DNA of 46,149 nt from Armatimonadota bacterium. GTDB lineage: Bacteria; Sysuimicrobiota; Sysuimicrobiia; Sysuimicrobiales; Humicultoraceae. Position 1 is the first letter of the stretch. Each line of letters opens with the position of its first letter. The stretch covers positions 21,343-67,491 of the forward strand of contig JAVHLY010000016.1 of the NCBI GenBank assembly GCA_031081585.1, read 5' to 3'. The position numbers and the translations under genes were made by a program. Below, one piece after another: positions 9,525 to 12,595 of the stretch. Under the pieces are notes generated by a model. That model saw only the letters and a list, made by a program, of their open reading frames with translations, was not told where the DNA came from and ran no database searches.

Positions 9525-9735
9525 ATGCGTTATCCCTTCTCAACTTATAGAGTACTTAACTTCGTCATCATCATAGATGTTGTGGTTGGTGGGGATAAGA
9601 GGGGGTCGGGCCGGTTTTGAACGGCCCGACCGGGTGAACGCCCCTGTGGGTGGGGTGGGGATGGTTCGTGGGGTTGGCTGGGGACGGACGGGGGCTCGGA
9701 GAGCTCGAGGCGCCGTCCCCAGCTTGCCCACCGGG
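9525..9735 (-). other. dnaA-dnaN intergenic region with AT-rich island and DnaA-box-like sites
   Basis: This 211-bp gap holds, on the minus strand after dnaA, a DnaA-like box TTATCCCCA (9598-9590, one mismatch to TTATCCACA). A second, TTATCCACC, lies on the plus strand at 9736-9744, at the dnaA stop. The stretch 9541-9585 is the AT-richest part of this region and contains TATAAG (9549-9544), a possible -10 for dnaN, but no convincing -35. In Bacillus the unwinding element lies in this gap, so a bipartite origin is possible. Confidence 0.45.
9604..9631 (-). terminator. 10-bp hairpin downstream of dnaA
   Basis: GGTCGGGCCG (9604-9613) and CGGCCCGACC (9622-9631) form a perfect stem with an 8-nt loop, about 105 bp after the dnaA stop. 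Neither strand has a following T-run, so termination would be weak or Rho-assisted; it may instead slow polymerase or protect the dnaA mRNA end. Confidence 0.4.
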
Positions 9736-11085
9736 TTATCCACCGTGCTGCAGGCGCTCCGTCAGGCGTTTGAGACTGGCCGCCAGATGGGGGTCCTGCT
9801 GCAATGCGTGCTTGACCCGGTCGCAGGCGTGCATGACGGTCGTGTGGTCGCGCCCGCCGAAGGCCTCGCCGATCCTGGGGAGTGAGGCGTCGGTCAGCTC
9901 TCGCGCCAGGTACATGGCGACCTGGCGCGGGAAAGCTACGGCCTTGGTTCGGCGCTTGGCCCGCATCTCCTCGAGTCGGATGCCGAAGTAGTCCGCGACG
10001 GCTTGCTGGATGGCCTGGATGGTGACGGCCGACGGTCGGGAGGCGGGCAGGAGTTCGCGCAGGACCTCTTCGGCAAGGGTGCTGGTGATGGCCGACCGCG
10101 TGAGCGTCGCGTAGGCGACGACGCGGACGAGCGCACCCTCCAACTCGCGGATGTTCGTGGTAATCCGCTGGGCGATGAACTCGGCTACCTCGTCCGGGAG
10201 GTGGATGCCGTCCACCTCGGCCTTCTTGCGCAAGATGGCGATGCGGGTCTCCAGGTCGGGGGGCTGGATGTCGGCGATGAGGCCCCACTCGAAGCGCGAG
10301 CGCAGGCGCTCTTCCAGGGTCGGGATCTCCTTCGGGGGCTTGTCGCTCGTTATGATGATCTGGCGGGTGGCCTCGTGCAGCGTGTTGAAGGTGTGGAAGA
10401 ACTCCTCCTGGGTGCGTTCCTTGCCCGCCAGGAACTGGATGTCGTCGATGAGGAGCACGTCCACGTTGCGGTACTTGTGGCGGAACTCGATCATGCGGTC
10501 GTCGCGGATGGAGTTGATGAGTTCGTTCGTGAACTTCTCGCTGCTGACGTAGGCCACCCGGTGCAGGGATTCGTGGTCGACGACGTGATGACCGATGGCC
10601 TGGAGGAGGTGGGTCTTCCCCAGGCCCACGCCGCCGTAGATGAACAGGGGGTTGTAGGCGCGTCCGGGCGCTTCGGCGACCGCACGGGCGGCGGCGTGGG
10701 CGAAGCGGTTACCGCTGCCCACGACGAAGGTCTCGAAGGTGTACTTGGGGGAGAGGGCGAGGCCGTCGATCGTGCGCACCGGGGCCGGCTCCCGGGCGGC
10801 GGACGGGAGCGCCGGGGGTGGGCCTTCGCTCACCGTCAGCTCGACGGTGACAGGCCGTCCGGCGATGCGCCGCAGCTCACTCTGGATGAGCCCCAGGAAC
10901 CGGGACTCGATCCAGTCCTTGGCGGCCCGGTTGGGGACGGCAAAGGTGACCGTATCGCCGCGGACCCCCAGCGGGCGCATGGTCTTCACGAAGACCTCGA
11001 AACTGGGCTTGCCGAGCTGGCCTTCGATGCGGGAAACCGCGGCAGTCCACAGCGACTGCGCGGAGGCGGGGTCGGTGGTGGCCAT
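9736..11085 (-). CDS. dnaA: Chromosomal replication initiator protein DnaA
   Basis: 449 aa from the ATG at 11085, chosen because GGAGGAGG lies just upstream; the frame is open 17 codons further. Domain I spans about residues 8-80 (SLWTAAVSRIEGQL, FEVFVKTMRPL). A short linker follows. The AAA+ domain has YNPLFIYGGVGLGKTHLLQ (Walker A 151-158) and VLLIDDIQFLAGKERTQEE (Walker B). The C-terminal domain IV has the DnaA-box-binding signature FGGRDHTTVMHACDRV. DnaA binds the boxes at 12083-12354, unusually separated from the gene by another coding region. No promoter is evident in the 90-bp gap upstream, so dnaA may be co-transcribed with the GHKL gene. Confidence 0.97.
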   Translation of the reverse strand: MATTDPASAQSLWTAAVSRIEGQLGKPSFEVFVKTMRPLGVRGDTVTFAVPNRAAKDWIESRFLGLIQSELRRIAGRPVTVELTVSEGPPPALPSAAREPAPVRTIDGLALSPKYTFETFVVGSGNRFAHAAARAVAEAPGRAYNPLFIYGGVGLGKTHLLQAIGHHVVDHESLHRVAYVSSEKFTNELINSIRDDRMIEFRHKYRNVDVLLIDDIQFLAGKERTQEEFFHTFNTLHEATRQIIITSDKPPKEIPTLEERLRSRFEWGLIADIQPPDLETRIAILRKKAEVDGIHLPDEVAEFIAQRITTNIRELEGALVRVVAYATLTRSAITSTLAEEVLRELLPASRPSAVTIQAIQQAVADYFGIRLEEMRAKRRTKAVAFPRQVAMYLARELTDASLPRIGEAFGGRDHTTVMHACDRVKHALQQDPHLAASLKRLTERLQHGG

Positions 11086-11175
11086 GGCGTCCTCCTCCGA
11101 GGCAGGTGACATCGGCACGGGTCGGTCGGGGCACACGAGGTGCCGGGACGTCCGGCTTCGCGGGCATGACGTCGG

Positions 11176-11973
11176 TCATGACGTGAAGATGGCTCCCAGG
11201 TGGGCGATCCCGTCCTCGGTCAGCGTGCGCTTCCCGGAGCCCCGGTGCTGCACGAGGCCGAGCGACTCGAGGGCGACGAGTTCCCGGTAGGCGGTGCTGT
11301 GGCTGATGTCCAGCTCTTTGGCGATGCTGGTCGGTCCGGCCGCGCCCAGCTCGCCAATGAGTAGGAGGATCTTCTTCTGCCGGGACGTGAGCTCTGCCGG
11401 GTCCGGGCGTCGCCCGGCCGGCGGGCCGGGGGGCGCGGCCGGGCGCGCCAGGCTGAGGGTGACAACGGTCCCGCCATCCAGGTTGTCCTCCAGCGTCAGG
11501 GTCCCGCCGAGGAAGGTCAGTTGCTCGCGGGCGACGGGCAGGCCCGAGCCCACGCCGCGGATGTAGCGGCGCATCTCGGCGGAGGCGGTGGTAAACCCCG
11601 GCAGGAGGGCCCGCTCCTTGTCGCGGATACCCGGTCCTTGATCGGCGATGCGGATCGTGTTGCCGTCGTCGAGGATGCTGATCACGGCGTTGTGGAAGTA
11701 GGCATGGATGAGGTTCTCCACGATCTCCCGGATGACCACAAAAGGGATACGGCCCCCGCGGGCCTGCGACTGCGTGTAGGTCGTCGTCGCCAGGTCGTCG
11801 ATGAGGGCCTTGAGGTCGCCGCCCGTCAGCGAGATCACCCGCGGCGTGGCCAGCGGCGAGTCGTACACCGCCAGCCGGACCTCGGGGTCGACCTCGGCAT
11901 CCTCCGCGCCTCCCCTGGCTGCTTCCCGCAGCCGGCGGAGGGCATCACGGATCGTCGTCGGCTCAACCGACAT
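11176..11973 (-). CDS. GHKL-type ATPase fused to a winged-helix DNA-binding domain
   Basis: 265 aa. Residues about 85-185 are a HATPase_c (Bergerat) fold like that of SpoIIAB/RsbW and histidine kinases: the N box is REIVENLIHAYFHN, the G1 box ADQGPGI and the G2 box RGVGSGLPVA. There is no dimerisation/phospho-acceptor domain. After a Pro-rich linker the C-terminus (about 205-262) is a winged helix: SRQKKILLLIGELG, then SIAKELDISHSTAYRELVALESLGLV. So this is a one-protein ATP-binding transcription regulator. It lies between oriC and dnaA and points the same way as dnaA. A 12-bp tandem repeat (12019-12042) is upstream. Target genes are unknown; dnaA is the obvious candidate. The ATG at 11973 lacks a clear ribosome-binding site. 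Confidence 0.78.
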   Translation of the reverse strand: MSVEPTTIRDALRRLREAARGGAEDAEVDPEVRLAVYDSPLATPRVISLTGGDLKALIDDLATTTYTQSQARGGRIPFVVIREIVENLIHAYFHNAVISILDDGNTIRIADQGPGIRDKERALLPGFTTASAEMRRYIRGVGSGLPVAREQLTFLGGTLTLEDNLDGGTVVTLSLARPAAPPGPPAGRRPDPAELTSRQKKILLLIGELGAAGPTSIAKELDISHSTAYRELVALESLGLVQHRGSGKRTLTEDGIAHLGAIFTS

Positions 11974-12018
11974 GACGCATGTTTTCTGGGATGGTCGGAA
12001 TTCCTACTGTCCCGGCCG

Positions 12019-12042
12019 GTGTTCGAGTCTGTGTTCGGGTCT
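12019..12042. repeat. Two tandem 12-bp repeats upstream of the GHKL regulator
   Basis: GTGTTCGAGTCT (12019-12030) is directly followed by GTGTTCGGGTCT (12031-12042), differing at one base. The pair is 46 bp upstream of the start codon at 11973, a place where an operator for that gene would be expected. Confidence 0.6.
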
Positions 12043-12082
12043 TTTCATGCCAGCCATGCGGCAGGCTGAAGATCACCGGAAA

Positions 12083-12354
12083 TGTGGATATCGCCGTCCC
12101 GGGCAGTGCGGGTTTCGGCGGGGGTATCCGCTCTTCCTGCGGGGCGGATGGGGAGGAAACCCTTTGGTTGCGCGGGCGTTTGCGGACTTGTCCACAGGTG
12201 TGGGCAAGGCTGTGGACAGACCTGGGGGGTTGTGGGCAGAGGAATGGGATCGCGGGGTCGACAGACCCGGGTAATGGGTGCCTGGGCGCCGGCTGATGGG
12301 ACGGTCCCGGCCGGATTGTGGACAGAACCCGGTGTTATCCACAGATTGTCCACA
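12083..12354. other. oriC: Replication origin oriC (DnaA-box cluster)
   Basis: Within the 484-bp gap between the GHKL gene and rpmH lie at least eight DnaA-box-like 9-mers. Plus strand: TTGTCCACA 12188-12196, TTATCCACA 12335-12343 (perfect) and TTGTCCACA 12346-12354. Minus strand: ATATCCACA 12091-12083, TTGCCCACA 12207-12199, CTGTCCACA 12219-12211, CTGCCCACA 12239-12231 and CTGTCCACA 12325-12317. Gene orientation diverges exactly here. The rest of the gap contains the rpmH promoter and no credible coding sequence. No long AT-rich unwinding stretch is seen inside the cluster; the best candidate is the dnaA-dnaN gap. Confidence 0.9.
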
Positions 12355-12389
12355 GTCCACCCGCTCCATTCCCGTTGCCGCACTGTTCA

Positions 12390-12419
12390 TTGAAGCCCGG
12401 ATGCGCGGTGTGGTATAAG
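12390..12419 (+). promoter_or_regulatory. Promoter of the rpmH-rnpA-yidD-yidC-jag operon
   Basis: TTGAAG (12390-12395), 18-bp spacer, TATAAG (12414-12419). The predicted start is about 30 nt before the rpmH ATG. It abuts the right edge of the DnaA-box cluster, so DnaA binding could affect it. Confidence 0.6.
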
Positions 12420-12457
12420 AAAGCGGGACTTTTACCCCCTTTCCCGACCGGAGTGGT

Positions 12458-12595
12458 ATGGTCAAACGGACTTATCAACCGAAACGGCGGCGGCGTCAGC
12501 GCGTCCACGGGTTTCTGGCCCGGATGCGAACTCCGGGGGGGCGCAGGGTGTTGAAGCGCCGTCGTGCCAAGGGTCGCCGCCGCATCGCTCTTTGA
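12458..12595 (+). CDS. rpmH: 50S ribosomal protein L34
   Basis: 45 aa, extremely Arg/Lys-rich: begins [13 protein letters not shown], then [26 protein letters not shown], the L34 signature. It is a component of the large ribosomal subunit. GGAG lies 4 nt before the ATG. The last 11 codons overlap the open frame of rnpA, and the stop codon sits inside an 11-bp tandem duplication (12590-12611). First gene rightwards of oriC, as in most bacteria. Confidence 0.96.

Follow-up and report, generated by a model that had tools for sequence, protein, structure and literature searches.

In Bacillus subtilis, oriC is bipartite, with a cluster of DnaA boxes upstream of dnaA and a DnaA-trio unwinding site downstream of it (PMC13220808, PMC6669920); the 3′-GAT-5′ DnaA-trio has TACTACTAC as its complement (PMC6669920). 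In this organism DnaA is regulated by YabA, Soj, DnaD, CcrZ and SirA (PMC13220808). How deep-branching bacteria control the level of DnaA and the firing of their origins is largely unknown. Here we analyzed a stretch of 46,149 nucleotides (the window) from a 2.9 Mb genome assembled in 66 contigs, in which a gene for an ATPase fused to a winged helix (wHTH) adjoins dnaA:

11176 to 11973, minus strand: gene of the GHKL ATPase–winged-helix protein (265 aa; HATPase_c at residues 80-176, wHTH at residues ~196-257)
9736 to 11136, minus strand: dnaA open reading frame, directly downstream of the ATPase gene, with its likely start at ATG 11085 or GTG 11136

Past dnaA lie dnaN, recF and, further away, gyrB, and in the opposite direction lie rpmH, rnpA, yidC, jag, parA and parB, some of these names coming from a reading of the translations.

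The earlier note on this DNA had described the frame as a fusion of a GHKL ATPase, its N, G1 and G2 boxes complete, with a winged helix, and we confirmed the frame, its coordinates and its strand, as well as both domains. The frame has a single possible start codon. In a Pfam profile search, HATPase_c (PF02518) matched residues 80-176 with an E-value of 2.1e-12 and 47.9 bits against a cut-off of 26.4, which places the protein in the GHKL/HATPase_c superfamily, and the C-terminal 60 residues matched wHTH families of the IclR, MarR, TrmB and Csa3 types, with HTH_IclR reaching 25.5 bits against a cut-off of 22 over residues ~196-257. The three boxes are intact in the window, and across 45 diverse homologues the residues of the N box (E83, E86, N87 and H90), G1 (D111, G113 and G115) and G2 (G140, G142 and G144) are invariant or nearly so: N87, H90 and all of the named G1 and G2 residues are kept in 44-45 of the 45, and E83 in 43. 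Conservation extends to the wHTH, where S224, R230 and R249 are among the residues kept in 43-45 of the 45 homologues; S224, R230, G247 and R249 are invariant, as is the basic residue R198. An AlphaFold2 model made from a three-sequence input predicted the wHTH with pLDDT mostly of 75-89; the mean over the whole model was 53, and the GHKL part was not confidently predicted. Weak matches to solved structures were to branched-chain dehydrogenase kinase, sporulation kinase B, CheA and anti-sigma F for the GHKL part and to MarR-like proteins for the wHTH part.

Several more specific assignments were considered for the protein. At E ≤ 1, the only Pfam matches were to HATPase_c and wHTH families, with no HisKA-type dimerisation/phosphoacceptor domain among them, which argues against a sensor histidine kinase; neither AlbA_2 nor HATPase_c_4 was matched at this threshold, which argues against a regulator of the COG2865 type. 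The earlier label of SpoIIAB/RsbW-like holds for the GHKL fold and fails at the level of the curated families, since the SpoIIAB model TIGR01925 scored 21.1 of the 135 bits needed and HATPase_c_2 (PF13581) 12.8 of 27.4. The protein has no close paralogue in its own genome, the next matches there being ATPase parts of larger frames with E-values of ~1e-5 to 1e-4.

To follow the family across genomes, we compared loci from the window's phylum, represented in the search by one order with seven families, and from beyond it. Searching with the single protein gave 38 matches in other genomes at 54-71% identity, all of them within the window's order except the match in G057. The gene is present in each of the order's 37 genomes in which dnaA could be detected. 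All loci read show it immediately in front of dnaA and in the same direction; the assembly of G039 splits the pair, with the gene running into the end of one contig and dnaA opening another. Its apparent absence from five further genomes (G003, G005, G023, G033 and G035) is not real, these being incomplete assemblies that also have no dnaA match. A profile (A1) was then built from 24 family sequences and searched beyond the order. In a second phylum, represented by one genus with a GC content of ~45%, the gene adjoins dnaA in all three species at ~50-53% identity. The first broad searches suggested a restriction to these two phyla; sampling of a third, large phylum (that of G094) removed it by giving 31 matches among 299 genomes (E-values of 1e-95 to 1e-32), of which 30 are same-strand neighbours of dnaA; the 31st is cut by a contig end. 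One class of this phylum, that of G563, has the gene in 15 of 15 good genomes.

The third phylum is probably Bacillota, because the DnaA of one of its members, G368 (7.3 Mb), is 72% identical to the sequence that we take to be B. subtilis DnaA. Among other genomes, the 40 dnaA loci whose DnaA came closest in sequence were read, and none of them, G368 included, has such a gene upstream of dnaA. The patchy distribution within the third phylum implies losses or transfers. A tree of DnaA did not resolve the sister relation of the second phylum, and the gene may have come by either vertical descent or transfer.

The GHKL–winged-helix protein is thus an old, conserved family whose linkage to dnaA is without exception among the assembled loci of three phyla. 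The earlier note had proposed neighbourhood conservation as a check, and homologues proved to be strictly dnaA-linked, not scattered; such consistent adjacency rules out a random, unlinked homologue. Adjacency alone, however, overstates functional coupling, as the oriC neighbourhood is generally conserved in bacteria. In a mirror-tree comparison, the value for DnaA (0.57) lay between those for DnaN (0.73) and YidC (0.45), with no co-variation beyond that seen for neighbouring genes. The protein could regulate something else and merely be carried along in this neighbourhood, where gene order is widely conserved and yidC, jag, dnaN and recF hold their positions too. We consider this explanation improbable, given the unbroken linkage across three phyla, the insertion of the gene exactly between the DnaA-box array and dnaA, and a spacing that suggests co-transcription. 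A functional link to dnaA or the origin is well supported, and we think it very probable that the protein influences, by whatever route, either dnaA or the working of the origin.

The spacing between the two genes was analyzed in the window and in its relatives. In the window, the gap is 90 bp to the ATG at 11085 and 39 bp to the in-frame GTG at 11136. In relatives, ~40 bp commonly separate the stop of the gene from the likely start of dnaA, with 9-16 bp in some genomes and an overlap (-4 bp) in two, and in the third phylum the distance between the open frames ranges from -22 to 110 bp. Because the gap is usually ~40 bp and the frames sometimes overlap, the ATPase gene and dnaA probably form one operon, and in many genomes the short or overlapping gaps would hardly accommodate a promoter for dnaA alone. 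This is in accordance with the earlier observation that the two genes are co-directional with no obvious separate promoter for dnaA. Some irregularities of dnaA were seen in individual assemblies. In two genomes of genus g14, G029 and G037, dnaA was matched as two pieces in different frames (L028:2259-3573 and L031:2304-3604); the breaks differ in place and are possibly assembly errors, and a third g14 genome has an intact dnaA. In G025, a further dnaA-like match (77%, covering residues 112-444; G025:C47:77640-78638 and L032:3-965) is separate from the ATPase-linked dnaA and represents either contamination or a second copy.

Apart from its linkage to dnaA, the gene occupies a particular place with respect to the elements of the origin. 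A scan for DnaA boxes and a reading of the intergenic regions on both sides of the two genes gave the following features:

11974 to 12458, no strand assigned: intergenic region to the divergent rpmH, the upstream part of the origin, with the DnaA-box array and the promoters of rpmH and of the dnaA operon on opposite sides
12346 to 12354, plus strand: DnaA box TTGTCCACA
12335 to 12343, plus strand: perfect DnaA box TTATCCACA
12188 to 12196, plus strand: DnaA box TTGTCCACA
12083 to 12091, minus strand: DnaA box ATATCCACA
9525 to 9735, minus strand: dnaA-dnaN gap, the putative unwinding side of the origin
9590 to 9598: box-like TTATCCCCA within the dnaA-dnaN gap
~9541 to 9581: AT-rich, trinucleotide stretch within the dnaA-dnaN gap

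With one mismatch allowed, the interval between rpmH and the ATPase gene holds 2-8 DnaA boxes per locus at nearly fixed positions, where shuffled sequences lead one to expect at most 0.2. Most loci have DnaA boxes in the dnaA-dnaN gap too, and in most relatives this gap carries a canonical TACTACTAC and an AT-rich stretch, which are degenerate in the window. Box clusters thus flank dnaA and clear trios are present in most relatives, as in the bipartite origin of B. subtilis. With boxes upstream and the putative unwinding site between dnaA and dnaN, the sequence places the ATPase gene inside a predicted bipartite origin, between the upstream box array and dnaA. The earlier note had set the gene between dnaA and oriC; the position between box array and dnaA stands, and the picture of a one-part oriC does not, as the likely unwinding region lies across dnaA, in the dnaA-dnaN gap.

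This location could also mean that the protein is a direct factor of the orisome, one that by binding to DnaA or to the DNA of the origin promotes or prevents the assembly of DnaA, with any effect on transcription being secondary. The location of its gene, with the box array on one side and the unwinding region on the other, would suit such a role, as would its presence irrespective of the type of promoter. Against this, autoregulation is the simplest role for a wHTH protein whose gene shares an operon with the presumed target, and we regard a direct orisome role as unlikely, while giving it some weight.

The upstream region was next considered for the promoter of the dnaA operon, where two tandem, promoter-like elements of the AGGA type were recognized:

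11981 to 12007, minus strand: P2, a conserved promoter-like element of sigma-H-like form, GTAGGAATT-N11-AGAAAAC
12112 to 12140, minus strand: P1, a second AGGA...CGAAA element (CAGGAAG...CGAAAC), conserved in families f1 and f2

Of 38 loci from the window's order and from the second phylum, 37 have AGGA-N17-AA at a fixed place, with a spacing of 16-18, a motif that was noticed before it was scored. The DnaA-box core TCCACA lies 70-72 bp before the AGGA in most relatives and 83 bp before it in the window (the box at 12083-12091). The divergent rpmH promoter is sigma-A-like, with a mean of 8.55 of 12 matches vs 6.96 in shuffles, and on the dnaA-operon side no sigma-A match rose above shuffles (7.21 vs 7.26 of 12). 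Compared with the sigma-H consensus RNAGGAWWW / RNNGAAT (PMC8510167), the promoter of the second phylum, GCAGGATTC-N11-AYAGAAT, agrees at 12 of 13 positions, as does that of one f1 genome; most others are weaker, with single-locus shuffle p-values mostly >0.05. The comparison is only suggestive of a sigma-H-type promoter for the dnaA operon in these two groups, the order of the window and the second phylum. As a universal feature a sigma-H promoter can be set aside, since the third phylum is without the AGGA element. No operator was recognized with confidence, and none common to all phyla was found. In relatives, a GG-N8/9-GAAA element ~27 bp before the AGGA of P2 was also seen, which may act as a weak DnaA box or serve as an UP element. 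A full-length sigma-H is encoded in the window's own genome (TIGR02859 above cut-off, G000:C19:1631-2221), and a protein of this family above cut-off in 36 of the 46 searched genomes of the order; the match in the second phylum falls just below cut-off. Two genomes of the second phylum have three sigma-H-like copies each.

These observations bear on a switch of the SpoIIAB/RsbW type, in which the GHKL domain would bind a sigma-H-like factor, a STAS partner would relieve this binding and the wHTH would tether the protein at the sigma-H-like dnaA promoter. The relatives of the GHKL part include anti-sigma F, and the own genome holds, besides its sigma-H, seven STAS matches; the upstream region of the dnaA operon carries the sigma-H-like element. 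On the other hand, the SpoIIAB and HATPase_c_2 models were far from matched and below cut-off, respectively, an informal reading of the neighbours recognized no sigma or STAS gene adjoining the ATPase gene, and the third phylum keeps the protein at promoters with no AGGA element. An anti-sigma switch therefore appears quite improbable.

The reading that we prefer is that the ATPase–wHTH gene would head the dnaA operon and encode a dedicated DNA-binding regulator. Its winged helix would bind the promoter and DnaA-box region upstream of its own gene, and the GHKL domain would bind ATP, exchange ATP and ADP or dock a partner, thereby switching DNA binding. Such a switch would set the transcription of its own gene and of dnaA, and possibly also how readily DnaA reaches the upstream boxes. 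Observed in support are the domain architecture, the conserved residues of the ATP site and the recognition helix, the linkage to dnaA, the operon-like spacing and the location in the origin. ATP binding, DNA binding, the target site and the direction of regulation are here predictions from sequence, and the suggestion of the earlier note, that the expression of dnaA or the firing of the origin could be coupled to the level of ATP or to a partner protein, would depend on them. We give about even chances to this particular mechanism, in which a nucleotide or a partner switches a DNA-binding protein that regulates the dnaA operon or the origin. More tentatively, and with somewhat less than even confidence, the family may represent an undescribed, ancient class of initiation control, in which an ATP-switched winged-helix protein, encoded within oriC at the head of the dnaA operon, would match the supply of DnaA or the firing of the origin to the state of the nucleotide pool or to a signalling partner, with a sigma-H-like promoter in two of the phyla. 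The protein is a directly testable candidate for coupling the energy or signalling state of the cell to chromosome replication.

If this regulator reading is true, the protein acts at the same step as YabA, Soj, DnaD, CcrZ and SirA, none of which is described as a GHKL or wHTH-GHKL protein in the review that covers them, where the terms 'GHKL' and 'winged helix' are absent (PMC13220808). A search of the literature for genes upstream of dnaA, GHKL-wHTH regulators, and sigma-H with dnaA, with subscription papers mostly outside its scope, gave nothing on the protein. With the SpoIIAB/RsbW anti-sigma GHKL kinases it shares the Bergerat ATP-binding fold, the N, G1 and G2 boxes and the form of a short soluble protein, and it differs from them in its winged-helix fusion, its conserved N-terminal segment PEVRLAIYDSPL and its dnaA neighbour. 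Outside the family, the ATPase domain is closest in sequence to CBS-fused or stand-alone HATPase proteins (GPGI ... PGFSTA ... GFGAGMGLPNI) with a similar PGF(S/T)TA motif, several of which have CBS domains in place of the wHTH and which are not near dnaA in the loci read. Five such stretches (L076, L081, L082, L083 and L084) encode CBS-domain-like proteins fused to a SpoIIAB-like GFGAGMGLPNI ATPase, with dnaA not adjacent in the parts read. The C-terminal wHTH resembles winged helices of the IclR, MarR, TrmB and Csa3 types, but the dnaA-linked protein is without the effector domains of those families and has its GHKL domain preceding the wHTH. Finally, the predicted origin shares the two-part layout of the bipartite oriC of B. 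subtilis and differs from it by an extra gene within the origin, before dnaA, which gives a new origin layout.
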